A stretch of DNA of 24,380 bases from a virus. The notes beneath the pieces were generated by a model that was not told the DNA's origin, made no database searches, and saw only the letters and a list, made by a program, of their open reading frames with translations. The stretch spans positions 1 through 24,380 of the IMG/VR virus record IMGVR_UViG_3300014491_000016. One strand, 5' to 3'. Position 1 is the first letter of the stretch; each line of letters opens with the position of its first letter. The position numbers and the translations under genes were made by a program. Positions 410-24,380 of the stretch are shown here, one piece after another.

Positions 410-1354
410 TTACGCTCGGCTCCGGGCCGCCTTAAACCACTTATATGTCGCCCTCAATCCCTCCGGGAGAGGGTACTCCGGGGTGAAGCCGAGCGCGTTG
501 AGCTTGCTCAGGTCGGCGTAGCAATCCGGGCGCCCGTTCGGCTTGGTCGTGTCAAACTGCACACGATCGTAGCCGACGCCGCTGATCTCCGCCAGCATGT
601 AGACGGTGTCCTTGATGCTCCACGACTGGCCGTTCCCGATGTTGATCGCGCCGCCCGTGTCGGGCGCACTGGGCAGCACGATACGAACGATATGCGCGAG
701 GTCGGCGCTGTAGAGGAAGTCCCGCGTCGGCGTGCCATCGCCCCAGATCGACACGACATCGTCCGGTCTGATCGAGGCGTCGTAGAACTTCTTGATCAGC
801 GACGGCAGCACGTGGCCGGTCTCGACGTTGAACCGATCGCGCGGGCCGTAGAGATTGCCGGAGACAAGATAGGCGTAGTCGAGCCCATGGCTTTCCTTGT
901 ACGCTTCGAGCATCGCGAGCATGTGCCGCTTCGCGTGACCATAGCCGCTCTCCATGTCGTGCGGCCGGCCATCGAAGATGTTGGCTTCGCTGTACGGCAG
1001 CTTCGGCGGCCACGGATAGATGGCGTTTGTCCCCATGGCGACGATCTTCTTGACGCTGGCAACGATGTGCGATGCGTGGATGACGTTCGTATTGATCATC
1101 GTGTTGTCGTAGATCGACTTCGCTTGGTTCTTCATGTTGCCCATGATGCCATAGACGGTCGCGGCCGGATGGTAGACGTACTCCGGTTCGATCCGATCGA
1201 ACATCCGGATCACGGCGGCCGGATCGCGAAGATCGCAGTCCTGACGAGTGATCGGCACAGCGCATGTGAACTCGTGCGCGCGGAGATGCTCCACAACTGC
1301 GGAGCCGGCGAGGCCATTGGCCCCGGTGACGAGAATACAGGAATTCTTTTTCAT
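410..1354 (-). CDS. GDP-L-fucose synthase-like NAD(P)-dependent epimerase/reductase
   Basis: This 314-residue short-chain dehydrogenase/reductase has the usual length of GDP-fucose synthase (GDP-4-keto-6-deoxymannose 3,5-epimerase-4-reductase). Visible features are the Rossmann motif GANGLAGS (11-18), the catalytic Tyr138 and Lys142 in YGHAK, NLYGPRDRF (168-175) and His181 in GHVLP. These match the enzyme from Escherichia coli with a constant offset of two residues (Y136, K140, H179). The E. coli loop GSSCIYP reads GTNAIYP here, so the residue matching catalytic Cys109 is Ala111 and Ser107 is Thr109. The enzyme may therefore reduce the 4-keto sugar without full epimerisation. It is the last gene of the sugar cassette; its ATG overlaps the stop of the gene before it (ATGA). 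Its substrate would come from the GDP-mannose dehydratase encoded two genes upstream. Confidence 0.88.
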   Translation of the reverse strand: MKKNSCILVTGANGLAGSAVVEHLRAHEFTCAVPITRQDCDLRDPAAVIRMFDRIEPEYVYHPAATVYGIMGNMKNQAKSIYDNTMINTNVIHASHIVASVKKIVAMGTNAIYPWPPKLPYSEANIFDGRPHDMESGYGHAKRHMLAMLEAYKESHGLDYAYLVSGNLYGPRDRFNVETGHVLPSLIKKFYDASIRPDDVVSIWGDGTPTRDFLYSADLAHIVRIVLPSAPDTGGAINIGNGQSWSIKDTVYMLAEISGVGYDRVQFDTTKPNGRPDCYADLSKLNALGFTPEYPLPEGLRATYKWFKAARSRA

Positions 1355-2247
1355 GCGGTCTGTCCTTTGATTGATCTCTCATAAGCGGCTTGCTGGCGCT
1401 CTTGGAGAAGCTGCATCATGCGCTGCCGATGATTGGGGGCGATCACGTTGTTTCCCCCGATCCTTGGTCCCCGAGGCTGCACGAACGGCGTAGAGACTGT
1501 GCGGAATTTCTCCCACGCCTCCGGCCCGATCTCTTCCTCAAGCCATTGGATCGTGCCGTATCGGGTGATGTCGTTCATCTTGGTCAGAAGGTACGGGCTC
1601 TCGGTCATGAGCTTCGCCCGGATACCAAGCTCTTCGCGGCTCAGCATGTCAATCCACCGGAACGCGCCGTGGAAGCCGAAGTTGCCCGGGTTGCGCGGTC
1701 CAAGCTCCCACGAGAAGCACGACGCAAGGTCGCGATCAGGCCACTTGAAGCCTGCCAGCTCCAGCCCCTTGCGCTGATTGCGGCAGAGGTCCCAATCGGT
1801 GGAGACTGGGTGTTCTTTCGGGTGCGCGGCGAGATACTGGCCGAGACGTTTCGACATCAACGTGAAGCCGCCATTGCCCACGTCCATGTAGTTGATCTCC
1901 TGCGGCCGAACCTGCCACGGGGCGCCGATGTAGTCGTAGTTGAAAAACTCCGGCCGCCACTTCGCGGGATCGTAGATACCCGCATCCCATTCGAGCATCA
2001 ACGCGAAGTCCGTTCGGATGCCGGCGCACGCGTACTGATAATAGAACTGCCCGGCCTCTCTCTTGTTGGGGAAGTCAGGCACGCTGACGTAGGTCGCCCC
2101 GGGGACCGGGATGAGGTCCGGCTTATCCGTATAAAGCAAAATGCCGCCGAAATTACATTTTGAGATACAATCGTCGATCACGCGCTTGGTGATCTTGTGC
2201 GCGCGGGTCTCGACGAACAGAAGCGTGACGCGGGACAAATCGAGCAT
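1351..2247 (-). CDS. DUF5672-type glycosyltransferase
   Basis: The 298-residue product matches the layout of the DUF5672 family, which is related to GT-A glycosyltransferases. Visible features are an EWDAG acidic motif (86-90, in the place of DxD), YDYIGAPW (104-111), VGNGGFTL (123-130), then STDWDLC and FGFHG (190-194). I chose the ATG at 2247 rather than the upstream alternative at 2316, because an AAGGG ribosome site precedes it and it starts just after the stop of the previous gene (2250). The longer form would begin inside that gene. The donor and acceptor are unknown; the context suggests transfer of a sugar made from GDP-mannose. Its stop overlaps the start of the reductase gene. Confidence 0.82.
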   Translation of the reverse strand: MLDLSRVTLLFVETRAHKITKRVIDDCISKCNFGGILLYTDKPDLIPVPGATYVSVPDFPNKREAGQFYYQYACAGIRTDFALMLEWDAGIYDPAKWRPEFFNYDYIGAPWQVRPQEINYMDVGNGGFTLMSKRLGQYLAAHPKEHPVSTDWDLCRNQRKGLELAGFKWPDRDLASCFSWELGPRNPGNFGFHGAFRWIDMLSREELGIRAKLMTESPYLLTKMNDITRYGTIQWLEEEIGPEAWEKFRTVSTPFVQPRGPRIGGNNVIAPNHRQRMMQLLQERQQAAYERSIKGQTA

Positions 2248-2249
2248 GG

Positions 2250-3053
2250 TCAGCCCTTTTTGATGACCGGCGCGCGGAAGAACCTCGGCTGAGCGTCGGG
2301 GTTTTCCGCTAGCCACAACTTATGGGCCGCCGCCAGTTCGCGGATGGCGACCGAGTTCTTGACCGAGTGAAGGACATTCGTGCCCTTGTGCCGCACGCTC
2401 TCCATGGCGATGCGGAAGCCCATGCTGTACGTTTCAAGGTCCGCCTTGGAAGGGTTCTGCTTGCGCAGATCGATAGCGATGGGGCACGAGATCGCGTCGT
2501 TGAACCGCTTCCACTGGAGACCGGCGACCATGGTCAACTGCACCATGTAGAAATCGATGAATGGCATGACCGGCGACGCCTGCACGAGCGGATCATCCTT
2601 GACCGCAAGCATGGCTTCGATGGTCTTGCGGCTCAGAAAGTACGGCGGCTGGAACGCGACGTGCGGCCAGTTGGGTTGGAACGAATTTTGATGCTCGGGG
2701 ATGGCATCGTCCACTTGGTTCGACCAAACGACATCTGGCTCCGCGTAGAGATAGTCCGGGATTTTCGGGTCAAGCATAATGCTGTCGCTGTCGTGGATCA
2801 GGAAGTGGTTCTCGGGAAACGACAGCATCGCCCGAAGGTGATTGGCCTGCCGGTCAAGACTGTCCTGTCCGATGTAGGCGCGCTTGCCGCCGAAGTGGTT
2901 CGTGACGCCCGGGTAGTTGATCTCCGCTTTGCTGTCCTCGGGTGACATCACAGTGAGCGGGCACTCGTGATGGAGATAGAACTCAAGGGCTTCGATGACT
3001 TGATGGCTGTCGCCATGATAACAACAGACGACTACGCGGGTATCTTCATTCAT
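2250..3053 (-). CDS. Putative GT-A fold glycosyltransferase
   Basis: The product has 267 residues. It begins with a beta-strand (VVVCCYHGD, 7-15) followed by a helix, as in the nucleotide-binding half of GT-A enzymes. It carries HDSDSIML at 87-94, a DxD-like metal site placed where the family expects it (FLIHDSDS). The rest (aromatic, with [11 protein letters not shown] near residue 150) resembles acceptor-side regions of small phage and bacterial glycosyltransferases. Its start overlaps the end of the dehydratase gene by 8 bases, so the two are probably translated together. I do not recognise a named family. Calling it a glycosyltransferase rests on the DxD motif and on the company it keeps. 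Confidence 0.6.
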
Positions 3054-4083
3054 CGGTCAGGACCTTTCCAGCTTTCAGGTCCTCTCGGACCATCTCACAG
3101 ACGAGTTCTTCAAATCCGGTCTTGGGCTTCCACCCGAGAGCCATGCGGGCCTTCGTAGCGTCGCCGCGCAGGAGATCGACCTCAGCCGGCCGAAAGTATT
3201 TCGGGTCTATAGAGACAAGCGCCCTGCCTGTCAAGCCGCTGAAACCAACTTCGTCCACGCCGACGCCGCGCCAGACGATCGGGTGCCCGATGTAGGAGAA
3301 CGCCTCTTCGACGAACTCCCGGACAGAATGCGAGACGCCGGTCGCGATCACGTAGTCATCCGGCTTGTCTTTCTGGAGGGCCAGCCACATCGCTTCGACG
3401 TAGTCCCGGGCGTGGCCCCAGTCGCGCTGCGCGTCGAGATTGCCGAGCGTGAAATGGTCCGAGCGGCCTTGGTGGATCGCCGCGACCGCCTGAGTGATCT
3501 TCCGCGTGACGAAGGTCGGACCACGGCGCGGGCTCTCGTGATTGAAGAGGATGCCGTTGCTCGCGTGCATGCCGTAGGCCTCGCGGTAGTTGACCGTGAT
3601 CCAGTAGGCATAGAGCTTCGCGACGCCGTAGGGCGAGCGCGGTTCGAAGGGCGTATCCTCGCTGAGGAAATGCTCGCCGTCATGCTTGGCGAGGGAGTTG
3701 CCGTAAAGCTCTGACGTGGAGGCCTGATAGAGCCGCGTGTCTTCCATGCCGAGGTTGTTGATCGCTTCGAGCAGCCGCATGGCGCCGAGGCCGTCCGCGT
3801 TGGCGGTATACTCCGGCGTCTCGAAGCTGACTTGCACGTGAGACTGGGCGGCGAGGTTGTAGACCTCGGTCGGCTGGATTTCCGACAGGAGCCGCGTGAG
3901 GTTCGATCCATCCGTCATGTCGCCGTAGTGGAGCTTCAGCTCCGGCAAATGATCGATGCGCGAAGTGTTGAAGTTCGAAGCGCGGCGCTTGATGCCGTGG
4001 ACCTCGTATCCCTTTCCGAGAAGCAGCTCCGCAAGGTAGCTGCCGTCTTGTCCGGTGATCCCGGTGATCAGTGCTCGCTTCAT
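3046..4083 (-). CDS. gmd: GDP-mannose 4,6-dehydratase
   Basis: A full-length (345 residues) GDP-D-mannose 4,6-dehydratase, which converts GDP-mannose to GDP-4-keto-6-deoxymannose in the cytoplasm. Seen are the NADP-binding [15 protein letters not shown] at 8-22, NLAAQSHV (76-83), the catalytic Thr123 and Glu125 in ASTSELYG, Tyr152 and Lys156 in [11 protein letters not shown], and FNHESPRRG (180-188), a strong family signature. The product is the precursor of GDP-fucose, GDP-rhamnose and GDP-deoxytalose. The reductase-like gene downstream in the same operon should use it. The ATG overlaps the stop of the small membrane protein gene (ATGA). All key residues are present, so it should be active. 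Confidence 0.96.
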
Positions 4084-4397
4084 CGGAAAGCTCCTTCGAC
4101 CTTCGTTTCAATGTTCTGGAGAACAGCGCGACGGTGGTCCGTGACGCACTGCTTGCCCCATTCGATCTGCGCATCGGTGATGTCCGGATACTTCCGCCGA
4201 GCCTGCCGTTCGGCGAGCCACAATGGCTTGAGGCCCACGCGCTTGACAACTTCCTCGCACGTGATGCCTTGCTCCGGCCCCTGTCCACGAGCAAGGCTCA
4301 TCGCGCCGAGTGAGAACAGCACCGCGAACAAGAGAAAGAGCGCCCATGGAAACAGGCGCTTGATCTTCGGATCGACATCTCTCACTCTCGTCATCAT
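4080..4397 (-). CDS. Small single-pass membrane protein, unknown function
   Basis: The 105-residue product has a basic N-terminus, one transmembrane segment ([19 protein letters not shown], about 15-33), and then a soluble charged helical domain of about 70 residues with two cysteines (C47, C84). After export these could form a disulphide. The start at 4397 is preferred because ATGATG overlaps the stop of the gene before it. A long in-frame extension upstream to 4574 is antisense-like sequence inside that gene. The segment could act as a signal anchor placing the domain in the periplasm. Sitting between glycosyltransferase genes, it might anchor or regulate them, or be an unrelated lysis accessory (spanin-like topology). 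I do not recognise a family. Confidence 0.7.
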
Positions 4398-5017
4398 GCT
4401 CTTACCCCCGCTACCGCCCTTGGCGTGTGTTGATCGATAATCTCCGACCGAAGCCAATCCTCGGTCGGCATTCCCAGTTGCTCTTGCGTCCATCCACCGT
4501 AGCTTCTCACATACGGCTTCAATTCGTGCAATCGTGCGGTCCATCCCCGGCGGAAACCGTGCGCCGCGTTCCACGGCTGATCCCGAACGAAGTGCTTGCC
4601 CTCAACCGTCATGTGGACGCCGCACAGGATGACATGGACAAATCCCAGCTCGCGTGCGATCTTGACACAGAAGAGCCCGGTCGAGCCGGACCAATCGCGC
4701 GTCCAGTGGGTGACAGCCCCCTCGTAGTTTCGATGCGCCCAGACTTTCTCCGGCTGATTGAACCCTGCGGCCCGCCGACGTGGGAGCCACAACTGAAGCT
4801 TGTCCGGGTGAAGCGAAACCGCATGCGTAATGTCATCCGGGAATTTTTCTATCATGTCATTCCCAGCAAAGATAGTGACAGTACGGTTGACCTTAGCGCA
4901 AAGCTCTTTCGCGAGCACGTATTCAGCAAACGGATCGCCGCCGCCGGCCATGACGATGGCGACATCCTGTCGCGTGGGTTCTACGGGACGCGGTGGAGGC
5001 GGGCGCATGACGATCAT
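4394..5017 (-). CDS. DUF115/MptE-like Rossmann protein, probable sugar-modifying enzyme
   Basis: The product has 207 residues. After a Pro-rich N-terminus comes a strand and Gly-rich turn (VAIVMAGGGDPF), then a second half with a signature resembling DUF115-like and bacterial glycosyltransferase folds (TGLFCVKIARELGFVHVILCG, given here in part). It ends with a conserved-looking GVHMT and charged tail. The start at 5017 is preferred to 5041: it forms an ATGA overlap with the stop of the gene before it and has GGGG before it. The similarity is by pattern only, so glycosyltransferase activity is a guess supported by the cassette context. Related phage proteins are often annotated only as hypothetical. 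Confidence 0.6.
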   Translation of the reverse strand: MIVMRPPPPRPVEPTRQDVAIVMAGGGDPFAEYVLAKELCAKVNRTVTIFAGNDMIEKFPDDITHAVSLHPDKLQLWLPRRRAAGFNQPEKVWAHRNYEGAVTHWTRDWSGSTGLFCVKIARELGFVHVILCGVHMTVEGKHFVRDQPWNAAHGFRRGWTARLHELKPYVRSYGGWTQEQLGMPTEDWLRSEIIDQHTPRAVAGVRA

Positions 5018-5982
5018 GTGTTGTCCCCAATATGGGTGCATTCTTCGGACACAAACTTTAATACGGCGGCCTTCGCGGCGTCCATATCCAAGCTTTTATC
5101 GCACGACTTCTGGCACGCCGAGGTCCAGCACGAGCAGCCGACCCTCGGGCCAATTGCTAGATAGGGGGCAAACTTCGCACCGCTGTCGTGACAGTGCACG
5201 TCCTCATAGCCCCCGATGAGTGAGAGCGTGGGCGTCCCGACCGCTGGGCCGAGGATAGCTGCAAATCCGCTCGGAGTGAAAACGAGGTCGGAGAGCTTCG
5301 CCAAGGCAGCCATAGCTTCGAATACCAGCTCGCCACGGTGAAAACTCAGGTCTGCTTTAGTTTCCAGCCCCGGCGCAAGCCATTCCTTGCCCTCTTCGAG
5401 ATCGGCGATGCTTATAACGAAAAATTGGTCCCGAATTTCGTTATAGAGAAAATTATGGGCCGCGATGTCCGGGTTTCGCAGCGCTCCGCCGCGCCACTCC
5501 GGGCGCATGACCGGCGGCCGATAGAACATGATCGGTTTGGGCGTGCAGATGAGCGCGGCGAGGCCCTGCCAACCTAGCGAGGCCCGAAGCAGATCGGTCC
5601 ATGCGGCGGGGACCGGGAGCCGATAGTCCGCGTCGGCGAAGCTTGTGCCCGTTACGTCGCACATCACTTCGAGAATGGTCTTGCTTGGGGTCCGCAGAAC
5701 TTGGGTCCCGCTGTAGGCAGCACGCATCCCATTGGGGCTCCGCGTGAGCGGATGGCGCGCTGCGAACTTGGCGGCCTCACGCTGCTCGTTCTTCATCTGG
5801 GTCCGCAAAGCAATACCACGGCGCACGACGATCAGGCCCTCGGCGATGAGGTCGTGATACATCGCGGGCCATGGCGTCGCGAGCGTGACAGTGTACCGCT
5901 TCATGAGTTGGCGCAGAACCGCGCGTTGGTGAAGGCAATCTCCCATGCCTCCCATACCAGCGAAAAACAAATGAGGAAGCAT
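5014..5982 (-). CDS. GT9-like (heptosyltransferase-type) glycosyltransferase
   Basis: The 322-residue product has GT-B features. The N-terminal GMGGMGDCLHQRAVLRQL (residues 9-26) corresponds to the GGLGD...LP/LR start of ADP-heptose:LPS heptosyltransferases. The C-terminal FTPSGFAAILGPAVGTPTLS followed by LIGG corresponds to the donor-binding region where family 9 enzymes have a G(P/T)xxxxAxxxGxPxxxL(F/I)G pattern. A Cys cluster (CSCWTSACQKSC) near the end matches the cysteine-rich tail seen in some GT9 proteins. The start at 5982 is chosen because GGAG lies 6 bases before it; the upstream TTG would overlap that site. It opens the sugar cassette after a hairpin spacer. Acceptor and sugar are unknown. 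Confidence 0.72.
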   Translation of the reverse strand: MLPHLFFAGMGGMGDCLHQRAVLRQLMKRYTVTLATPWPAMYHDLIAEGLIVVRRGIALRTQMKNEQREAAKFAARHPLTRSPNGMRAAYSGTQVLRTPSKTILEVMCDVTGTSFADADYRLPVPAAWTDLLRASLGWQGLAALICTPKPIMFYRPPVMRPEWRGGALRNPDIAAHNFLYNEIRDQFFVISIADLEEGKEWLAPGLETKADLSFHRGELVFEAMAALAKLSDLVFTPSGFAAILGPAVGTPTLSLIGGYEDVHCHDSGAKFAPYLAIGPRVGCSCWTSACQKSCDKSLDMDAAKAAVLKFVSEECTHIGDNT

Positions 5983-6000
5983 TGAGAACTCCAAACGTCA

Positions 6001-6074: not shown

Positions 6075-6449
6075 TTAACCGTGGGTGATCGACGCCGCCG
6101 TGATGGACACGGGCTGGCCGGCGACGACGTTCGTGCTCGACAAAACGATGTCGGTGCCCGAAGTGCCGACCGTCAGGCCGGTGATGACCGCCGTGCCGCC
6201 ATTGTTGATAGCGGTCGAAACCGTTGCCCCCGTCGCGGTGCCCGATGCGTTCGCCGAGCTTTCCGTCAAGGGCGTACCCGAGAAGGTCAGCACGCCGCCG
6301 GTCACAGTGCCCGCCGGATTGGCCAGCGGGATCGACGCGAGCACGACGGCGCTCGAATTGAGGATGTTGAGATATCCCGTCGTGCCGATGGCGGTGACGA
6401 CATCCGTCATCCGCGTATTTTTCAGTGTAGCGTTGTAGGTGACTGCCAT
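6075..6449 (-). CDS. Small beta-rich phage tail-tip protein, hypothetical
   Basis: The product has 124 residues, very poor in charged residues and rich in Thr, Gly, Ala and Val. It begins with the phrase MAVTYNATLKNTRMTDVV, common to small phage proteins encoded beside tail fibre genes. The middle (PAGTVTGGVLTFSG) and the end (DIVLSSTNV, then a terminal SITHG) look like strands of a beta-sandwich. A good GGAGG ribosome site precedes the ATG. Position at the end of the tail-tip block suggests a virion surface protein that works with the SPRY-like protein encoded 13 bases upstream. No enzymatic motif is visible. The exact role (fibre accessory, decoration) is unknown. Confidence 0.8.
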   Translation of the reverse strand: MAVTYNATLKNTRMTDVVTAIGTTGYLNILNSSAVVLASIPLANPAGTVTGGVLTFSGTPLTESSANASGTATGATVSTAINNGGTAVITGLTVGTSGTDIVLSSTNVVAGQPVSITAASITHG

Positions 6450-6462
6450 GGTGGCCTCCGTT

Positions 6463-7455
6463 TCAGGTTATAATGATCGGGCGGCGGCGGCGAACCTGAG
6501 AAACGCCTTCACCAAAAATGCTACACCGGTCCGTGGGCTCGGTGGACGCCCACGTGCCGGTGACGGGAACGGCTGCCGATGCAACCATGATGTCCGTGGC
6601 CTCGGTTGAGGCCCAGATGCCGTTCGTGCCCCAGCCGAGCCCAGCCGCCGCGAAGGCATCCTTGGCTTCGGTGGGCGTCCATACGCCACTGAGTTCTTGG
6701 AACGCATAGGCCGAGAACACATCGGCGCTCTCGAAGACCGCCATCGTCATGAGGTTGGACAGAAGAACCGTCGCCGCGAAAGTGTCGGTAGCCTCAGTCG
6801 CTTGCAAGTTGACAACGACCCCCGGAGCGCCGCTATAGCCGACTGCCGAAAAGCTGTCCGGGACATCGGTCGAAGCCCATGTGCCTGTCGGATAGCTGGA
6901 GCCATTCCACGCCGAGAAGCCCGCCGGAGCCGGGTATAAGAACGTCGGCGAAGGATAGTCCCCGCCGTCCACCGTGACGGAACAGGGGTTGAACTGGAGC
7001 CATGCATACGGAAAGACCGGCCCGGTGTAGCCCGCAATCGAGATACCGCCCGTGTTTGTCGCCGGGTCTGCGGTGCCGCTGCCGTTCCAGTTGCCGCCGT
7101 CTTCGCGGACCCAAAGCTCGTTGTTATCAAAGTCAACCGCGAAATCGAGAACGTGTCCACTTATGGCGGTGAGCGGGCCATAGTCGGTACCCCCTGAAAA
7201 AATATAGCCCGATGTATTGATGCCGAACTGCCCGTTGCCGCCGAGCGTATCGCTGGCCGCCGCGAAACCAATCTCTCCGCCGTAGGGCGTGACGATGCCC
7301 GTGAACTCGATATACCACTTGCCAGACGTGCCGCGCGATACGTTGCCGCGAATGCCCTCGTTACCTGAGCCCGAACCCGAGGTCGCGGTATGGTCCGTGT
7401 CCGATAGCGCGATGTGCGCGGTGCTATCGCCTGAGTTCCAGACTGTATTGGTCAT
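6463..7455 (-). CDS. SPRY-like tail fibre/receptor-binding protein with C-terminal WASTEA repeats
   Basis: The product has 330 residues. Residues 40-185 look like a phage SPRY-like beta-sandwich: SGKWYIEFTG (44-53), GGEIGFAAAS, LDFAVDFDNNELWVRE (103-118) and the closing PAPAGFSAWNG (175-185). SPRY folds bind protein or glycan ligands. From 193 to 315 there are six spaced copies of a 14-residue motif with consensus WASTEAxDxFAAxG. The clearest are at 193, 259, 281 and 302, with degenerate ones near 218 and 239. The same motif and domain occur in the protein encoded at 20769-21506. The C-terminus ends in a basic RRRR stretch. Lying in the tail-tip block, it is likely a receptor-binding or host-surface-recognition protein. 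Confidence 0.8.
   Translation of the reverse strand: MTNTVWNSGDSTAHIALSDTDHTATSGSGSGNEGIRGNVSRGTSGKWYIEFTGIVTPYGGEIGFAAASDTLGGNGQFGINTSGYIFSGGTDYGPLTAISGHVLDFAVDFDNNELWVREDGGNWNGSGTADPATNTGGISIAGYTGPVFPYAWLQFNPCSVTVDGGDYPSPTFLYPAPAGFSAWNGSSYPTGTWASTDVPDSFSAVGYSGAPGVVVNLQATEATDTFAATVLLSNLMTMAVFESADVFSAYAFQELSGVWTPTEAKDAFAAAGLGWGTNGIWASTEATDIMVASAAVPVTGTWASTEPTDRCSIFGEGVSQVRRRRPIIIT
6511..6879 (-). repeat. Six WASTEA-type 14-residue coding repeats
   Basis: Within the SPRY-like gene, six repeat units encode variants of WASTEAxDxFAAxG at protein positions about 193, 218, 239, 259, 281 and 302. Spacing is irregular (about 20-25 residues). Trp-Ala-Ser/Pro-Thr-Glu and an Asp five to seven residues into each unit are best kept. 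A single copy of the motif lies at 21345-21386 in another gene. Confidence 0.75.
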
Positions 7456-7459
7456 GCGG

Positions 7460-8308
7460 TCAGCCCGTCAATTGCGCGTAGAACGTGAAGCCGATGTTCG
7501 CGTGGGTCGCGTCCGCAGGCGACGGCGCGACGAAGGTGAGTAGGTCCACGCCTGCCAAGAACGCAACATCGTTCGGGAAGCTGACCGCGATGCCCGAGCC
7601 GTTGAACGTGATGGTGCCGATGGGGTTTCCGTTCTTGTTGATCGCGTATACCGCGTTAGCAGTCGCGCCGACGATGTTGTAGAACTTCGAGCCCACGAGC
7701 CCCGCCGGGAGCGTCATGTTGTCCACGGTGCAATACAGCAAGAGCAGTTCGCCCGCTTGCGGCTGCCCCTCAACGAAGATCGCAATGCGAATGGGATCAT
7801 CATGCCACTCGATGGCGAAGTCAGTCCCGGTAACGGACTTGACGAGCTTCTGCCCTTGTGTGCCGCCAGTCGGCAGTGCGTTCGACGGCGACATGAGCAA
7901 GAGCGAATACAAGTTGTGACTAAGGCCGTCCGTGGCGCTCGGCGAGAACGTCGCGCCGCTCGTGTGCGCGATGAGCACGAGGTAGAGGCTGCCGTTATAA
8001 GTGACGGTGTCATACGGCGCGTAGACCGTGATCGCCGTCCACGCACCACGAGGGTTCCACTGCGAAGTCGGGATTGTGAACGGCCCGAGCACGGCGTGGT
8101 TTAACAAGTGAACGTAGAAGGTATTGCTCCCGGTTGGCTGAGAGATATAATCAATACCCGCATCGACCGCCGAGTGATCTTCGAGAGCTTGCACGGCGGA
8201 GAATAGCGTCCAGAAATTGAGATCGATCTGGGTTGCTGACAGATCAGAGCCGTTGCCCCCGCCCCAGCGCGTGCCATCTGCCGTTCGATACGTGAGGGAT
8301 GAAACCAT
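7460..8308 (-). CDS. Tail fibre protein with carbohydrate-binding-like module
   Basis: The product has 282 residues. Residues 1-60 contain TRWGGGNGSDLSATQIDLNF, a phrase typical of phage tail fibre N-termini that dock to the tail. Residues 87-120 read as a small chitin/cellulose-binding-like module (CBM5/12 style): RGAWTAITVYAPYDTVTYNG with aromatics at the expected spacing. PTGGTQGQKLVKSVTG (146-161) is a common fibre linker. The C-terminal third is beta-rich (FNGSGIAVSFPNDVAFLAG). No catalytic residues are visible, so adhesion is more likely than depolymerisation. It is separated by 4 bases from the SPRY-like gene and probably forms part of the same tip structure. The module call is by pattern only. 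Confidence 0.75.
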   Translation of the reverse strand: MVSSLTYRTADGTRWGGGNGSDLSATQIDLNFWTLFSAVQALEDHSAVDAGIDYISQPTGSNTFYVHLLNHAVLGPFTIPTSQWNPRGAWTAITVYAPYDTVTYNGSLYLVLIAHTSGATFSPSATDGLSHNLYSLLLMSPSNALPTGGTQGQKLVKSVTGTDFAIEWHDDPIRIAIFVEGQPQAGELLLLYCTVDNMTLPAGLVGSKFYNIVGATANAVYAINKNGNPIGTITFNGSGIAVSFPNDVAFLAGVDLLTFVAPSPADATHANIGFTFYAQLTG

Positions 8309-10209: not shown

Positions 10210-12765
10210 TTATGGCGAAGACGGTGCTTCGAGATTGATGCCCATCGGCACCACGAGTGGTGAGACGCTGATTGTATACGCGCCATTGAACGGACCGTTG
10301 CCGGCGCATGGTTTGAGCAGACACGTCCATGAGACGGGGTTCGCCGCCATCACGTAAGGGGTATTCGAACTGACGAGGGCCAACTGCTCGCGCGTGACGA
10401 CCCACGCCGTTGTTGGGTCCTGCCCCGTGATCGTTTGGCTCGGGCTCTGGGAGGTTGAAATCGAGCCGCCGACGTTGTTGAGCCATGCCATCGTGCGCGC
10501 AGCGAGATACGACCCTTCGATCGCGACCGTCTGCTCGGCGAGACTGCCGCTGATGACACCGCCGTCGCTGACATCTTCCCAGCGCAACGGAAATTGCAGC
10601 CCGTCGTCGAACGCCTGATAGACCGGCGGAGTATATAGCGTGTCACCGCTGCCGGGATCGACCATCGCACCATCGTAAATCTGGTAGCCTACCTGTGCGT
10701 AGCCCGCCGACGCATACTCCGGCGTGCCGGTGATCTCGGAAATGCTGCCTCCGAAACCGACCGCGCATCCGATTTCGACCTTGCCATAGATTTTGCCGTC
10801 GCCGCCCGCGATGAGCGAATAGCTTGTGACCTTGCCCGTCGCGGCGCCGCCGGGGAACCGGGGATCAAACAGCGTCGCGTTGTGGCGACACGACAGACCC
10901 ACCGCGTACTCGAAGGGGCAGCTCCAGCCGACCGTGACCGCGCGAGCGCGAAAGCGCAACCGAGCGCGAGCGCGGCTGATCAAATACTGCAAGCTCATTT
11001 GGCCCCGAACAGTCGGGAAATAGTTGTTCGCGGTGATGTTGTCCGGCGTACCACCAATCGGGATACCGAGTAGCGCGGGCGACGTACCGAGCACGGTCCA
11101 CGTCACGGAACCATCAGTGATCGTTCCGCCCGTGGCGGTCGAGAAGGCAGGTGGCGCGATGTAGTCAATGATCCTCGGCGCAGGCGTCGGCTCAAGACTG
11201 TACGTCTTCACCGGGATAAACGAGAATTGCGTATAGACATCGTTGGATTTGCCCGCGCCCGTGCAGAGGTAGTATGACGTTTGCCCGGGGACATCCGTGA
11301 AGTCGCCGATGTTATAGTCGAACACCTTGTTCTGCAACAGAATGATTTGCCCAAGCGGAACAAAAGATGCGGGCGACCAATTCGGCGCATTTGTGATTGA
11401 GGTCTCGCCCAAGCTTGCCCACGTAACCGTGTTGTCTGGCGTGATCCCTCCGGGGGTGTCACTGAAGACAGGTTCGACAGGGCCAGCGATACCGGGCACA
11501 ACGCAAATCTGATACGACAGGCCACCCGGGGTCGTCGGGTTGTTCGGGAAGATAATTTGTGCGATGCCGACCGCGCTGTTCTTGAAGTCCGACCATGCGT
11601 CGAGCTGCACAAGCGGCTGACTGACATCTACCGACGACAAGGTCAGCAATTCGGTATGCTGCGCGACGGTCGGAGACGACAGGATACCTTGCGTATCCGC
11701 TGTCATGTCGAACGCGACCAACTCCGAATACTGTCGAGAAGCATCGTAGCGGAGGGTCATGTCGAGCGAGAAATTCCAGAGCGGGATGATCATGCCCGAG
11801 GACTGCATATGCAGCGGGATGTTGAGCGGCGGGTCCGAGAACGGGTCGCAGACGCCGGACTGAAAGTACCCGGTCAGCACGCACGACAAAGGGTTCGGCG
11901 AGAGCAGCGCCGGGCCGCTGGAGGCGTTCGACGCGGAGGCATTCGAACACTGACCCGGGTTCGGGTCGGTGTCCGTCCACGATGAGTTGTAGCTCGTGGT
12001 CGGCGTCGCGCCGACAAGGAACGTGTCCGTGACAAAGCTCGTCTCGCATTTATACCCGCCGCCAATGCTCGCGCCCGGCTTCGGCCAGTCACTTTCGAGC
12101 GTCTCCCCGGTATAGCTGGAGATGTTGACCGTAGGCACGGTGAAGAAGCCCGACGTGCGCTGGGTCCAGTTGACCGTCGCTTCGACGCGAATGTTCGTGA
12201 GCGGGGCCTGCCCGAGCTGCAACGAGACGCTGTTATAGAACGCCATGCCTTCGGTGAACTCGATATTGCCGTCTTCGCCGACAAGGATGTCAGACGCGGT
12301 GATGGCGAGCGACGTGCGATCGATATGCCAAAGCGCCGACCAACCTTCGAGGATCGTATCCGGGTCGTCTCGCTTGTTCGTTTCAACGAAGATCGGATCG
12401 TAGAACGGAGATGTCTTCATGGTTTCGGCGAGCGCCTGCTTGTTCTCAATGAACTGAGACGAGCGCGCGATAAACTGGAGAGTGACCTTCTCCTGAAACA
12501 GCGACGTGGGCACGCCAACGAGCACGCCAAAGAACAGCGGGATCACTCCGCTTGCGCTCTGCCAGCCAAGCCATCCCCACACTCTGCGGCCGGGCGCGAG
12601 CAGCCCGATACGCGGGTTCTCGACGATCAGCTCCAGCGTCGGGACCTGTCCCTCATCGTGCTTGATCGCGAACGAAAACACGTTCTCGTCGAACACGTTC
12701 ATCGTGTTCGGATCGAACGTGGTCTCGGTCTCGTTCGCCCAATACCAAGTGAAAGGCAATGTCAT
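10210..12765 (-). CDS. Large tail hub/tip protein
   Basis: The product has 851 residues. The N-terminal 130 residues (FSFAIKHDEGQVPTLELIVE, then GRRVWGWLG and LFFGVLVGVP) look like the first domain of phage tail hub proteins, the gp27/Tal type that closes the tail tube. Residues about 600-680 hold SCRHNATLFDPRFPGG with ATGKVTSYSL and KIYGKVEIGCAVG, a phrase found in hub proteins of many proteobacterial siphophages. A central insertion (about 200-560) with several cysteines is probably one or more carbohydrate-binding or Ig-like decorations. The start at 12765 is chosen for the ATGA overlap with the HNH gene and the AGGG before it. It should form the platform on which the fibre proteins encoded downstream assemble. 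Confidence 0.78.
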   Translation of the reverse strand: MTLPFTWYWANETETTFDPNTMNVFDENVFSFAIKHDEGQVPTLELIVENPRIGLLAPGRRVWGWLGWQSASGVIPLFFGVLVGVPTSLFQEKVTLQFIARSSQFIENKQALAETMKTSPFYDPIFVETNKRDDPDTILEGWSALWHIDRTSLAITASDILVGEDGNIEFTEGMAFYNSVSLQLGQAPLTNIRVEATVNWTQRTSGFFTVPTVNISSYTGETLESDWPKPGASIGGGYKCETSFVTDTFLVGATPTTSYNSSWTDTDPNPGQCSNASASNASSGPALLSPNPLSCVLTGYFQSGVCDPFSDPPLNIPLHMQSSGMIIPLWNFSLDMTLRYDASRQYSELVAFDMTADTQGILSSPTVAQHTELLTLSSVDVSQPLVQLDAWSDFKNSAVGIAQIIFPNNPTTPGGLSYQICVVPGIAGPVEPVFSDTPGGITPDNTVTWASLGETSITNAPNWSPASFVPLGQIILLQNKVFDYNIGDFTDVPGQTSYYLCTGAGKSNDVYTQFSFIPVKTYSLEPTPAPRIIDYIAPPAFSTATGGTITDGSVTWTVLGTSPALLGIPIGGTPDNITANNYFPTVRGQMSLQYLISRARARLRFRARAVTVGWSCPFEYAVGLSCRHNATLFDPRFPGGAATGKVTSYSLIAGGDGKIYGKVEIGCAVGFGGSISEITGTPEYASAGYAQVGYQIYDGAMVDPGSGDTLYTPPVYQAFDDGLQFPLRWEDVSDGGVISGSLAEQTVAIEGSYLAARTMAWLNNVGGSISTSQSPSQTITGQDPTTAWVVTREQLALVSSNTPYVMAANPVSWTCLLKPCAGNGPFNGAYTISVSPLVVPMGINLEAPSSP

Positions 12766-13223
12766 TTGGATAGCCCTACAGTAGCGTGCCACTCACGGTG
12801 ATCTGCGCTAAACTTTATCCCAGCGCACTTCGGCCCCAGCCCTTGAAGATTGTCCAACCTATTTGGTCCTTGTTTCCAGAGCGCGATTACATGATCGAAC
12901 TCTGTGATTGGCTCCCAGCCACAAGTGCATGTGTTGTTCTGACGACGACGAACAGCTTCAAGCTCTCCGCCTCCCAGTACACCCTCGCATCTAAATTTGC
13001 GAGCCCGTGCGTTATATTGACGGGCTTTTGTCTCATCCGCAAACGCCGGACTTGCGGCGTACCGGGCGTTGTTACGCTTGAGCACGTCTTCCCGATTGCA
13101 CTCGGCGCATGTTCGATTTGCCGTGAGCCGGTCGCAGATATGTCCACGAGCGCACTTCTCGCCAGTGTAATACCGAGAGAAACCGGAGGCCCGTGCTCTA
13201 TCCAATGTAAGGGGGAGCGTCAT
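12762..13223 (-). CDS. HNH endonuclease, free-standing in the tail operon
   Basis: The product has 153 residues. The N-terminal zinc-finger-like part YYTGEKCARGHICDR, followed by CAECNRE, gives four Cys/His ligands (C24, H28 or C30, C39, C42). The core has CTCGW (99-103), Asp110-His111 (DHVIALW), NRLDNLQGL (121-129) and KCAGIK (132-137). This is the HNH ββα-metal nuclease layout of homing endonucleases. The residue after C133, usually His or Asn, is Ala134, so activity is uncertain. Its start overlaps the previous stop (TGATG) and its stop overlaps the hub ATG (ATGA), so it has been fitted exactly into the operon. No intron or intein is evident around it. It may cut intron-less relatives at this locus, or have a structural or recombination role. 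Confidence 0.85.
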   Translation of the reverse strand: MTLPLTLDRARASGFSRYYTGEKCARGHICDRLTANRTCAECNREDVLKRNNARYAASPAFADETKARQYNARARKFRCEGVLGGGELEAVRRRQNNTCTCGWEPITEFDHVIALWKQGPNRLDNLQGLGPKCAGIKFSADHREWHATVGLSK

Positions 13224-19853: not shown

Positions 19854-20765
19854 TTACCTCATCGTGGTCCGATTTCCGCTCGCCATGAGCAGTCCGGCAC
19901 TCCGGAGCATGCGATCCACGACAGGGAACGAAGCGAAGAAACCAAGCCCGAATTTGGTATCGTAAGCGGTGACAGTTTCCAGCGGTCCGACCTTCTTGGT
20001 AACCGAAGACACGACGGCGCCGCCGCCGGCAACGGACGTGTCGTAGTCCGGCTGGAGGTTGGTGCCATTGAGCACTCGAATGGCCAGCTCAGCGCACGCG
20101 CGCCGGATCGCCTCCGGGATGCCGTTGACAGTATCGCCGCTGAGATCGACGGCGCCCTGTCGGGGCCATTGGGTCGCTTGCGTGGATGTGGCTGGCGTGA
20201 GATACGAAACGCCGTTGAGCGCGTAGGGCGTGAGCCATGCTTCGAGGAAGGTGGCATTCGCATCGATCACGGCGTTGCCGACCGTCTGCAAAAGCTTGAT
20301 CCCGACAAAGCGATACTTCGCATCGATATAGTCAGTCGCCTGCACAATGGCGCTCTGGATCATCGGAGTGGTCGCGCCCGCTGGCACCGCGTTGCCGCGC
20401 GAGTTGTGATACTTCGTGAAGAAGGCGACATCGATATAGGCGTTCGCTCCATCGATCTCGAACACGTTGGAGGTTTCGGTTGCGTTCATGCCCGTCGCCC
20501 ACGTGATCTGCCCAAGGGCTGGCCAGTCAGACATGGTCGCGCGGTTCGTCGAAACGGAGAAGTGCTCGTTGTCGAGCACTTGGACCACGGTGAACGGGAG
20601 AGAGTTGAACGCGGGCGCGTTCGTGAGGTCGGTGCCATCATCCGGATAGCCCGCATAAACCCCGGTGTCGCCGACCGAGATGATCAGCGACGGAGACGGC
20701 GAGGGCATCAACGTCACTTGCGTAACGGTGCCCGTCTCATCTTGAACTGAGAAAACAGTGGTCAT
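19854..20765 (-). CDS. Head-tail adaptor, DnaT-like domain with N-terminal extension
   Basis: The product has 303 residues. Residues 107-235 match the DnaT-like/head-tail adaptor family found in phages: ANAYIDVAFFTKYHNSRGN, ATDYIDAKYRFVG (143-155), QWPRQGAVD (199-207), and IPEAIRRACAELAIR (216-230). About 40 extra residues sit between the FVG and WPR motifs. Residues 1-105 are an additional beta-rich part (VTLMPSPSPSLIISVGDTG) not usual for the family, which is normally under 200 residues. The adaptor should bind the portal and form the first connector ring. The gene follows the SPRY-like gene by 3 bases. Confidence 0.75.
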   Translation of the reverse strand: MTTVFSVQDETGTVTQVTLMPSPSPSLIISVGDTGVYAGYPDDGTDLTNAPAFNSLPFTVVQVLDNEHFSVSTNRATMSDWPALGQITWATGMNATETSNVFEIDGANAYIDVAFFTKYHNSRGNAVPAGATTPMIQSAIVQATDYIDAKYRFVGIKLLQTVGNAVIDANATFLEAWLTPYALNGVSYLTPATSTQATQWPRQGAVDLSGDTVNGIPEAIRRACAELAIRVLNGTNLQPDYDTSVAGGGAVVSSVTKKVGPLETVTAYDTKFGLGFFASFPVVDRMLRSAGLLMASGNRTTMR

Positions 20766-20768
20766 GGA

Positions 20769-21506
20769 TTAACCCCACGCGCTGTAGCCGGCCGGGAGCG
20801 TGCCGGTGAATGCTGTAGCCCCGAAGTTGAACGTCCAACTGGAGCCCGATGAAGCGTCGTCAATGCAGCATGCCGGCTTGAACGAAGCTTCGGCTGGCAA
20901 TGCGAGGCCGGTAACGAGCGGACCCCCTGTAGTGAGATTTTGGATTTGCATCGTGTTGGCTCCGGTATCGATGCCGATGCCGAAAACATTGCCAGCACTG
21001 GGCGCGGCAAAACTGCCGTTGACGTTCCCAACATGGGAACCGTTGATGTAGATGTCACCGCTGTTGATATAGCAGATACAGCCATGCGTCGCGACGCCAG
21101 TCGAAAGGTTCGCAAACGTCGCCGTAGGCCCGGCGACGCCAAAGCCATCCACGCCGCTTCCATTGTCGCCTTTGGTGACGAGCTGAATTTCGACGTACCA
21201 TTTTCCGGTGTTCGAAGCATGGGATTTGGTAGCAGCGGCTCCCCCGATGCCCGGGGTACCCGCGAACGTGAGGTTGCCATTCGACAGGGCGCCGCTCGTG
21301 ACGGTTGCCGGATCAAGCGTGGTCGGCGTGAATTGGGTTGCGATGCCCGTCGCCGCGAAGATGTCGGGGGCTTCAGTGGACGCCCAGCCGAGCCGCTCGC
21401 CCGCGCTGGCCGCGATCCGGATGAGACGCTGACGCTTGCGCGCGTAGAACATCGCCGCCTGCAAAGCAGGCGACGATTTGAATTTTGGAAAAAGAGGCTT
21501 GGACAT
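20769..21506 (-). CDS. SPRY-like virion surface protein in the head region
   Basis: The product has 245 residues. It starts with a basic helix (QAAMFYARKRQRLIRIAAS), then WASTEAPDIFAATG at 41-54, one copy of the motif repeated six times in the tail-tip protein encoded at 6463-7455. Residues about 60-245 form a SPRY-like sandwich: NTGKWYVEIQLV (99-110), GDIYINGSHVGN, FGIGIDTGANTM and the terminal PAGYSAWG, all matching the tail-tip protein. The motif is before the domain here but after it in the tail protein. Encoded between capsid and connector genes, it may decorate the head or neck. An AAAGG site precedes the ATG. Confidence 0.75.
   Translation of the reverse strand: MSKPLFPKFKSSPALQAAMFYARKRQRLIRIAASAGERLGWASTEAPDIFAATGIATQFTPTTLDPATVTSGALSNGNLTFAGTPGIGGAAATKSHASNTGKWYVEIQLVTKGDNGSGVDGFGVAGPTATFANLSTGVATHGCICYINSGDIYINGSHVGNVNGSFAAPSAGNVFGIGIDTGANTMQIQNLTTGGPLVTGLALPAEASFKPACCIDDASSGSSWTFNFGATAFTGTLPAGYSAWG
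21345..21386 (-). repeat. Single WASTEA motif shared with tail-tip gene
   Basis: These 42 bases encode the 14-residue motif WASTEAPDIFAATG, which fits the consensus of the repeats at 6511-6879 exactly at W-A-S-T-E-A, D, F-A-A and G. It is the only copy in this gene. Confidence 0.7.
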
Positions 21507-21532: not shown

Positions 21533-22150
21533 TTAAGCCGCCGCGCCACTACGCCTCGGATGGATCATGCTCGCCGGAGCCGGCGCACCCGGGACCGGCC
21601 GCTTCCGGTTTGTCAACGAAGTCTGAAGCGGGGAAATCCCATGGTTCTCTTCCGCAAGCCGGATTTGCGCCGCGAGATGGGCCTTGATGTTCGCAGACGC
21701 CGTGATCCGGGGGAACCGACGATTGTGATCGTCGTGTGCCCGCGCGAGGCGCTTCTGGCACTGCACGACTTCCGCCTGCGCTTCCGACACTGCCGCTTGC
21801 GCGGCGGTCAAATGCAGTTCGGCGTCAGTGACGCGCCGGGTCAGGATTTTCCGCATCTCATCTTCCGTGAGTGGCTCATCGGCGACGGCTGTCGGCTTCT
21901 TGGCAGCGCGCTTCGGAGCGGTGGTCTCGGTGGACGCGGCCGGGTCCTCATAGGTCTTCGCGACTTCGGCGGCCGAGACGCGGGCGAACCCGGGGTTGGC
22001 ATCGTTGATCTGGGCTCGGGTGATGGAGGGGTCGTTGGCCAATTTCTGGATCACGCCGAGAGCCGGCGAACCGTCCTCGGTCCAGTTCGTGTCATCGGTG
22101 AGATCGAGCTTGGCGAGAATTTCTTGGATGGCTTCGTTGGGGGTCGTCAT
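21533..22150 (-). CDS. Head-associated protein with coiled coil, hypothetical
   Basis: The product has 205 residues. Residues 10-55 hold a pattern often seen in phage head-region proteins: LDLTDDTNWTEDGSPALG and then ITRAQINDANPGFAR (helix-turn pattern WTxDGxP...TRxxI...PGFxR). A Lys/Ala/Pro linker follows (77-90), then a helix likely to form a coiled coil (about 92-140, AELHLTAAQAAVSEAQAEV). The end is basic and Pro-rich. AGAGG precedes the ATG. Its place between capsid and connector genes suggests a scaffold- or head-related role, but no direct evidence shows this. Confidence 0.7.
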   Translation of the reverse strand: MTTPNEAIQEILAKLDLTDDTNWTEDGSPALGVIQKLANDPSITRAQINDANPGFARVSAAEVAKTYEDPAASTETTAPKRAAKKPTAVADEPLTEDEMRKILTRRVTDAELHLTAAQAAVSEAQAEVVQCQKRLARAHDDHNRRFPRITASANIKAHLAAQIRLAEENHGISPLQTSLTNRKRPVPGAPAPASMIHPRRSGAAA

Positions 22151-22595: not shown

Positions 22596-23693
22596 TTAGC
22601 TCTCGCGGGTGATCAGGCGGGCAAGCTTGATCTGCTTGCGCTCGGGGAACACGCGGACCCACGAGCCGCTGTAGGCGAGGTTGTTCGCCGTCGCCGCGTT
22701 GGTCGGGCCACCCTCGTAGGACGGGCTGCCGACGTAGGCATGGCCGACCGGATGGATGCACCACTCGACGCGGTTGTAGAGGATGTCTGAACCGGCGCCG
22801 TTGCCGCGATCGGGGAAGCGGTAGACTTCGGTCGGGACGATGGGCGAGCCCACGCCGAGACGGAAGGATGCGGGGCCAACGAGCCACGTGTGGTAGACGC
22901 CGGAGGCGGTCTGCGCACCGTTGGAGTTGTCGCCTGCCGGGTTGGGCATGCCGTCGTCAACGATCACTCGGCGGCCGAGGAAGACCGGAATGTTGGTCTT
23001 GCCTTCGCTGTCGGGGATGAAGTCGATCAGGTTGTTCTTCTGGGCAGTCGAATACACGATCGAGTGCATGAACACGGCGGTCACGTCCTCGGAGGCGTCG
23101 CCGAGCAGCGTGGCGGTATCGATGAAGGCCGGGGCCGAGAAGTTGGTCACGCCCGCGACGAAGCTGACGCCCGAGATGTCGTGGGTCAGATCGTTCTGAT
23201 GGCCATAGCCGGCGTTGATGCCGACCGAGCCGGAGCGGCCCAGCGTGGGATCGGCCAGCGCGTTGTTGGCGAAGATGCCGTTGGCAACGGCGACGAACGC
23301 GCGCTGCAACCGGCGGACCCAGTAGTCGGACACGCGCGATGCGATGGACTGCATCGGGTCGGCGCCGGCAAGGGCGGTCGCCAGACGCATCGTGCTCCAG
23401 CTTGAGTTGCGGCTCAGACGAACCGCGACTTCGGCGGAGGTCTGAGTGACGTTCGGGGTCGAAGACGTGTTCGGGTCATCGCTCGACACGTTCTCGGCCG
23501 GATCGCCGATGTCCTGCCAAGACGGGACCGTGAAGGTCAGGCCGCCGCCAGCGAGCAGATTGTCGAGGAAGTCATCGCGCGCGGCGACGCCGCTCAGGAT
23601 GATCGCGGTCTTCTCCATCGTGAGCTGCTGGGTGTACGGCGTGAAGACGGCGGGGACGATAACGTCCGCAATTTGGGTGGACACGTTGACCAT
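22596..23693 (-). CDS. Major capsid protein
   Basis: The product has 365 residues. The N-terminal VNVSTQIADVIVPAVFTPYT, the Gly-rich GGGLTFTVPSWQDIG (49-63), the helix with DYWVRRLQRAFVAVANGIFAN (about 128-148), IPVFLGRRVIVDDGMPN (about 235-252), and the C-terminal GVHP-like VEWCIHPVGHAYVG are typical of a phage major coat protein family common in Proteobacteria with an HK97-type fold. No protease or scaffold domain is fused. The ribosome site GGAGAGTATC lies 6 bases before the ATG. The gene is bounded by a promoter candidate upstream and a strong terminator downstream, fitting high and separate expression. Confidence 0.92.
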   Translation of the reverse strand: MVNVSTQIADVIVPAVFTPYTQQLTMEKTAIILSGVAARDDFLDNLLAGGGLTFTVPSWQDIGDPAENVSSDDPNTSSTPNVTQTSAEVAVRLSRNSSWSTMRLATALAGADPMQSIASRVSDYWVRRLQRAFVAVANGIFANNALADPTLGRSGSVGINAGYGHQNDLTHDISGVSFVAGVTNFSAPAFIDTATLLGDASEDVTAVFMHSIVYSTAQKNNLIDFIPDSEGKTNIPVFLGRRVIVDDGMPNPAGDNSNGAQTASGVYHTWLVGPASFRLGVGSPIVPTEVYRFPDRGNGAGSDILYNRVEWCIHPVGHAYVGSPSYEGGPTNAATANNLAYSGSWVRVFPERKQIKLARLITRES

Positions 23694-23888: not shown

Positions 23889-24380
23889 TCAGAACAGTTT
23901 TGCGCGCTCCGGATGCGGCTCATACCAGCCCTTGCCACCGAAAATATCCTTGAGGGACTGGAAATAATCGGTGTAGCGCGGACCGATATTTTCGAGCGAA
24001 AATTGCTCAGCCCATACGCGGCACGCCTGCGGATCAATCTTTTCGATATTGCGCGCGGCCCATTCGAACTGCTCGAAGGTGCGGCAGCGGAAGCCAGTCT
24101 GCCCTTGCACGTTGTACTCGGCAAACGCGCCTCGGTCCGATGAGATGACCGGGGTCCCCGACAGCATGCTCTCGATCTGCACGCCGCAGAACGGCTCAAG
24201 AAACGTCGAGGCGCAGATGGTTGCCTTGGCGTCGCGCAACAGCGCCGCACGCTTCAATGGGCCAACGTTGCCGACGTAGCTGACGAACTCAGTCGGCGGT
24301 TCTTGTGTGCCGGGACCCGCGATGATCAGGCGGGTCTTCGTCGCCTCCGCGATCTGCTTGGCGATGTGAACGCCCTTGCC
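23889..24380 (-). CDS. Glycosyltransferase family 4-like, C-terminal part (runs off right edge)
   Basis: The frame is open from the edge at 24380, so 163 residues are seen and the N-terminal half is outside the window. The visible start, GKGVHIAKQIAEATKTRLII with AGPG, is the donor-binding beginning of the second Rossmann domain of GT-B retaining enzymes. LEPFCGVQIESMLSGTPVIS contains the EX7E motif with both glutamates, followed by AFAEYNVQGQTGFRC. These define the GT4 type. It uses a nucleotide sugar to glycosylate an unknown acceptor. A glycosyltransferase directly before the capsid gene suggests it acts on virion protein, or that glycan genes flank the structural block at both ends. Confidence 0.88.
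   Translation of the reverse strand, partial: GKGVHIAKQIAEATKTRLIIAGPGTQEPPTEFVSYVGNVGPLKRAALLRDAKATICASTFLEPFCGVQIESMLSGTPVISSDRGAFAEYNVQGQTGFRCRTFEQFEWAARNIEKIDPQACRVWAEQFSLENIGPRYTDYFQSLKDIFGGKGWYEPHPERAKLF

Follow-up and report, generated by a model that had tools for sequence, protein, structure and literature searches.

Why should a single phage encode, once among its head genes and once among its tail genes, a protein that joins a SPRY-like domain to the same short repeat, with the two parts in reverse order? We addressed this question in a soil phage represented by a complete, 24,380-base viral record of IMG/VR (the window, meaning the whole stretch of DNA analysed), whose virion genes lie on the minus strand. 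A sequence-only reading had described a tail protein composed of a SPRY-like domain and then six repeats, and a head-region protein composed of one repeat and then a SPRY-like domain, and had proposed the duplication and rearrangement of a surface-adhesion module. Both open reading frames, here P0001 and P0002, are present on the minus strand where that reading placed them, and their parts are arranged as it described. That the two lie at opposite ends of the virion block is correct as gene order, since the window is a whole viral record, but says nothing direct about position on the particle. The features on which the analysis draws are as follows.

22596..23693, minus strand: major head protein (MCP; phrog_247, E = 4e-96).
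21533..22150, minus strand: P0005, conserved gene between MCP and P0002, with a phrog_17843 match (E = 7e-13).
20769..21506, minus strand: P0002, putative head-region display protein (245 aa), immediately upstream of Ad1.
21396..21506, minus strand: basic helical stub at the P0002 N-terminus (aa 1-37), a proposed virion anchor; constant at the locus, predicted helix.
21339..21392, minus strand: single TExxD repeat of P0002 (aa 39-56), 24.2 bits with an HMM from other phages.
20772..21338, minus strand: predicted SPRY domain of P0002 (aa 57-245); phrog_10080, E = 6e-14; Ash2L SPRY match.
19854..20765, minus strand: head-tail adaptor Ad1 (P0006; phrog_477, E = 5e-34), landmark downstream of P0002.
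7460..8308, minus strand: P0003, tail fibre-like protein with CBM5/12 (PF02839, E = 4e-8; phrog_7049, E = 1e-12), landmark upstream of P0001.
6463..7455, minus strand: P0001, putative tail-region display protein (330 aa), between P0003 and P0004, as are the orthologues in 14 related contigs.
6898..7455, minus strand: predicted SPRY domain of P0001 (aa 1-186); phrog_10080, E = 8e-9; AF2 pLDDT mostly 82-97; Ash2L SPRY match.
6502..6885, minus strand: array of six ~21-aa TExxD repeats of P0001 (aa 191-318), from the repeat HMM; beta-hairpin pattern, pLDDT about 40-60.
6466..6501, minus strand: basic C-terminal tail of P0001, SQVRRRRPIIIT, a proposed virion anchor; constant in tail orthologues and kept in the repeat-free G011.
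6075..6449, minus strand: P0004, phrog_3758 virion structural protein (E = 5e-9), landmark downstream of P0001.

Several other features of the window were noted. Ad1 carries about 100 additional N-terminal residues ahead of its phrog_477 match and is labelled DnaT_2 by Pfam, which is probably a naming artefact. P0007 (8365-9957) has three ~50-aa repeats of the form RRxH...VEVLDAxxFKxxxGKEMxxNLP in its N-terminal third, and an HNH endonuclease-like ORF (phrog_7785, phrog_333) lies amid the tail genes at 12762-13223. Genes for a GDP-mannose 4,6-dehydratase, an epimerase, a DUF5672 protein and glycosyltransferase-type proteins (410-5994 and 23889-24257) bracket the virion block, and sugar-gene homologues come after P0004 in most of 11 relatives compared; a role of these flanking genes in virion or host-surface glycosylation is possible.

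By their predicted structures, P0001 and P0002 each contain a SPRY (B30.2) domain. AlphaFold2 models made from small alignments (18 rows) show the concanavalin-like SPRY beta-sandwich with good confidence in both proteins, and match the SPRY domain of Ash2L with Z 22.8 over 170 residues at 2.0 A for P0002 and Z 21.2 over 164 residues at 2.1 A for P0001. The SPRY-like label is therefore borne out by structure prediction, the two folds being related and both SPRY (Z 21-23 to solved SPRY domains). A Pfam search returned no PF00622 (SPRY) match for P0001 or P0002; the phrog_10080 proteins Burkholderia phage AH2 tail fibre gp46 and Sphingomonas phage MMDA13 gp24, which have the same SPRY domain, scored 25.6 and 25.4 against the PF00622 cut-off of 26.3, and the best PF00622 E-value among relatives was 1.4e-5. 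In AH2 gp46 the domain is joined to DUF2793 and in MMDA13 gp24 to other domains, and the TExxD array was found in neither. Weak Pfam matches to TGF_beta_GS, TFIIF_alpha, G8 and others fell below cut-off and were dropped. Searches by tblastn gave no match to P0002 in named phages and none to its repeat-SPRY part in plasmids. Among the virion components of jumbo phages, tail fibres included, SPRY has been noted as a domain of lectin type (PMC7824862). The two domains described here, one encoded with head genes and the other with tail genes, probably serve in surface recognition, in keeping with the adhesion module first suggested. SPRY ligands may also be proteins, and for that reason a glycan target can only be presumed.

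The repeats of P0001 and P0002 are homologous, and their resemblance goes beyond chance. With an HMM trained on other phages only, leaving out the P0001 repeats, the P0002 unit scored 24.2 bits, against a best score of 11.1 bits among 20,000 shuffled copies; the profile search thus upholds the shared motif. The P0001 units, starting at residues 191, 215, 236, 257, 279 and 300, scored 19.1, 15.1, 5.0, 22.7, 21.9 and 17.3 bits. Only four of them match well the consensus originally read from the sequence, because W is missing from units 2 and 3 and unit 3 reads ESAD; position by position, the consensus is G-T-W/L-x-S/A-T-E-A-x-D-T-F-x-A-x-G. Across the 72 units collected D never varies, though partly by construction since the search pattern demanded it, and it is likewise invariant in all six units of a nine-row whole-array alignment built without that pattern. 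No Pfam or NCBIfam match to the repeat was found in array-bearing proteins, and the array profile found no sequence relative in the PDB.

The array profile also picked out related arrays in gp7 of Curvibacter phage P26059A (E = 1e-16) and in contig G036 (E = 1e-12). P26059A gp7 (394 aa) consists mostly of related repeats and is encoded in the head gene block, but it is without SPRY, matches a family of unknown function (phrog_38872) and lies among unrelated flanking genes. A 255-aa ORF (L059:464-1231:-) has eight repeats without SPRY, upstream of MCP and on the opposite strand. We also observed an 860-aa ORF (L148:7407-9989:+) with related SLAVTNANDTLAASG repeats and a middle that by eye is glycerophosphodiester phosphodiesterase-like. 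A scan of genome contigs with concatenated repeats gave 50 pattern matches, 0 of which were confirmed, and a contig scan with MCP gave two MAG loci, with no array in the one genome searched.

What the repeat might do is best approached from the tail locus, where P0001 runs from its SPRY domain through the six repeats to its basic end. Of 32 relatives, 18 have a P0003 homologue, and 17 such regions were retrieved. In 14 of these, the gene flanked by P0003 and P0004 combines repeats with N-terminal domains that vary from contig to contig, and its product usually ends in a basic C-terminus; three pairs among the 14 contigs are near-identical. P0011, the G001 orthologue, adds an F5/8C-like domain to SPRY and has eight repeats; some long proteins of the locus carry additional interdomain repeats; and in L130 and L132 a repeat stands immediately ahead of SPRY, as in P0002. 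The G011 orthologue passes from SPRY directly to NKRRVFFVA without any repeat, so that the short C-terminus emerges as the most constant part of the tail protein. The L135 orthologue is without the RR motif. A stalk or spacer is the best reading of the array. A docking tag, as had been suggested for the repeat, is unlikely, because G011 keeps the C-terminus without the repeat and because repeats lie between domains elsewhere.

Classical tail fibres have a constant N-terminal part that binds the virion and a variable C-terminal part that binds the receptor. P0001 departs from this arrangement, with a variable N-terminus and a constant C-terminus, so that its proposed anchor would lie at the end opposite to that of most tail fibres. 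We suggest that the conserved basic C-terminus of P0001 fastens the protein to the tail, that the six beta-hairpin repeats would form a stalk with the SPRY domain outermost, and that the repeat may also act as a spacer between the domains of longer tail proteins. The conserved C-terminus could, instead of an anchor, be a folding or trimerisation element, and the array chiefly an oligomerisation domain of a fibre, probably a trimer. The array usually has a fixed length of six units and is position-specific: 10 phages share six units in register, with same-unit identity of 0.450 vs 0.383 for other units (0/1000 permutations). Its strand-turn-strand units are modelled with low confidence in the AF2 monomer, as in obligate oligomers, and in L126/L127 it forms a nearly free-standing 183-aa protein. 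The single copy in P0002 and the interdomain repeats, however, suit a spacer, and G011 retains its C-terminus where there is no array; we consider an oligomerisation domain somewhat unlikely.

At the head locus the constant part is at the other end. The P0002 stub has a predicted helix at residues 13-39 (AF2 pLDDT 82-85 in its core), ahead of the single repeat and SPRY. Relatives were gathered by a scan with the major head protein, which gave 80 viral contigs, and in these the gene immediately upstream of Ad1 usually opens with the same stub, approximately QAxxYYARKRxR, which is followed by unrelated domains. An HMM of the stub found further stubs outside its training set at the same locus, with E-values down to 2.6e-11. 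Among 48 close relatives with an identified Ad1, stub and domain are present in 30, stub only in 5 and neither in 13, counts that are not independent events because several contigs are near-duplicates. The cargo of the stub comprises SPRY, Laminin_G_3 (8e-18), F5/8 type C (2.5e-4), SASA acetylesterase (6e-5), GDSL (0.008) and Ig-like domains, all matches except Laminin_G_3 being below the Pfam curated cut-offs. Two isolates carry the stub as well, Sphingomonas phage MMDA13 as a 53-aa stub-only gene (gp08) and Roseobacter phage RDJL3 with an Ig-like domain.

The exchange of the outer domain is visible in the DNA. P0002 and its L017 counterpart share 87.5% identity over stub and repeat but only 38% over SPRY; along the DNA, identity between the window and L017 falls from 85-90% to 38-58% where the repeat ends and is back at 90% by Ad1, and in L016 it drops immediately past the stub. 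In the lineage of L017 and the window, the head gene would have acquired one repeat unit. In L027 and L057, insertions of ~3.4 kb with several ORFs lie between the stub gene and Ad1, which suggests a wider insertion hotspot. What had been taken for a permuted order of one module is better described as two separate constant segments of opposite polarity, an N-terminal stub at the head locus and a basic C-terminus at the tail locus, each a putative anchor. The basic helix of P0002 may fix the protein at or near the head or neck, with the SPRY domain facing outward. P0002 might otherwise be a neck or assembly factor, its stub acting in head completion and the remainder incidental rather than a displayed decoration. 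Such a role would accord with the position of the gene, directly abutting Ad1, and with the existence of stub-only forms of 41-64 aa, but the gene is missing in 13 of 48 relatives and the cargo domains are those usually seen in surface recognition or in sugar enzymes, and we regard an assembly factor as unlikely.

A display role for P0002 has precedents. T5 pb10 joins its divergent displayed Ig-like domain to a helical capsid-binding part that is conserved, and it has anchor-only relatives (PMC5292684). P0002 resembles it in its conserved N-terminal putative anchor, its divergent and presumably displayed domain, and the occurrence of anchor-only forms; it differs in that the stub, about 37 aa long, is predicted to form one helix, the gene abuts Ad1 and the cargo reaches far beyond Ig. 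Pb10-type proteins bind at the centres of major capsid hexamers. Their anchor motif is F-G-X2-L-P (PMC5292684), and because FG..LP is absent from P0002 we do not file P0002 as a member. By analogy T5 pb10 is its closest functional parallel, and P0002 may bind the capsid in like manner. The 936 lactococcal neck passage structure (PMC4759559, PMC10684548) is similar by description, being the product of an optional head/neck-region gene with exchanged C-terminal domains that are sometimes carbohydrate-binding; unlike the gene at the head locus, its gene precedes that of the major tail protein, and the structure is backed by immunogold data. Domain exchange in neck and receptor-binding proteins is a known theme (PMC10684548).

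The sugar genes raise a further alternative, that the Ser/Thr-rich repeats are glycosylation acceptors for the products of these adjacent genes. The GDP-mannose dehydratase, epimerase and glycosyltransferase-type genes that flank the virion block are conserved with it, and T or S occupies repeat position 0 in 70 of the 72 units; the same sugar genes, however, stand next to the repeat-free G011 tail gene, and the invariant D and G point to a structural turn, which leaves this alternative improbable.

The origin of the two SPRY domains was examined in a tree. Both motif pairs reported as shared, SGKWYIE/TGKWYVE and PAGFSAW/PAGYSAW, are present, but a special link between P0001 and P0002 on these grounds is ruled out because GKWY and PAGF/Y are common throughout the phage SPRY family. 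Because branches are long and few forks are strong in the tree, which covers 20 SPRY domains, only topology tests were relied on. The P0001 domain pairs with the tail SPRY of L117 and next with the head SPRY of L028 from another phage (support 90/91 for the L028 grouping), and the P0002 domain clusters with head SPRYs from L017 and L025. That one SPRY-plus-repeat module was duplicated and rearranged within this lineage into a head copy and a tail copy, a reading to which the presence in the same phage of two shared motif types in reverse order had lent appeal, is very improbable, because constrained trees in which P0001 and P0002 are sisters (p-AU 9.4e-5) or all head SPRYs form a single clade (p-AU 0.003) are both rejected. 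The part of that proposal which survives is movement of the module between head and tail positions within the phage group, as the position of L028 indicates.

We consider it reasonably probable that P0001 and P0002 are two virion-anchored display proteins of one siphovirus-like phage, each with a SPRY domain on a site-specific anchor, that draw on a shared pool of recognition domains and use the repeat as a beta-hairpin spacer. Comparison of ~80 related viral contigs reveals two independent exchange sites, and because the relatives retain the mounts and swap the recognition domain, both loci look like modular display rather than simple duplication. The two proteins would follow one plan, in which an anchor bears a recognition domain with or without a spacer, and outer domains are exchanged among relatives at both loci from one pool; as this pool is mostly sugar-binding or sugar-processing, it suggests that the proteins help in attachment to host or surface glycans. 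The evidence consists of predicted structures and metagenomic contigs, many of them near-duplicate. Head and tail placement follows gene order, and no virion proteomics for PaMx25-type phages was found in the open literature; virion location, anchor function, glycan ligand and stalk role are what we infer.

Head-displayed accessory domains are known in few model phages. Unusual here are the short stub with varied cargo, the reversed polarity of the tail protein and the uncatalogued repeat, which would be a new stalk element if our reading of it is true. A short constant peptide, proposed to dock, has six or more kinds of cargo joined to it at a single locus in dozens of uncultured soil phages, which have a separate constant mount at the tail. 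We tentatively extend this to a large siphovirus group, in which the 30-40-residue basic helical stub may be a general docking plug for interchangeable recognition or enzyme domains on the head or neck, and the basic C-terminus with its beta-hairpin stalk may serve likewise at the tail, both supplied from one shared pool of domains. If the stub binds heads, it would be a natural display tag and would offer a simple rule for the discovery of head and neck adhesins in metagenomic phages.
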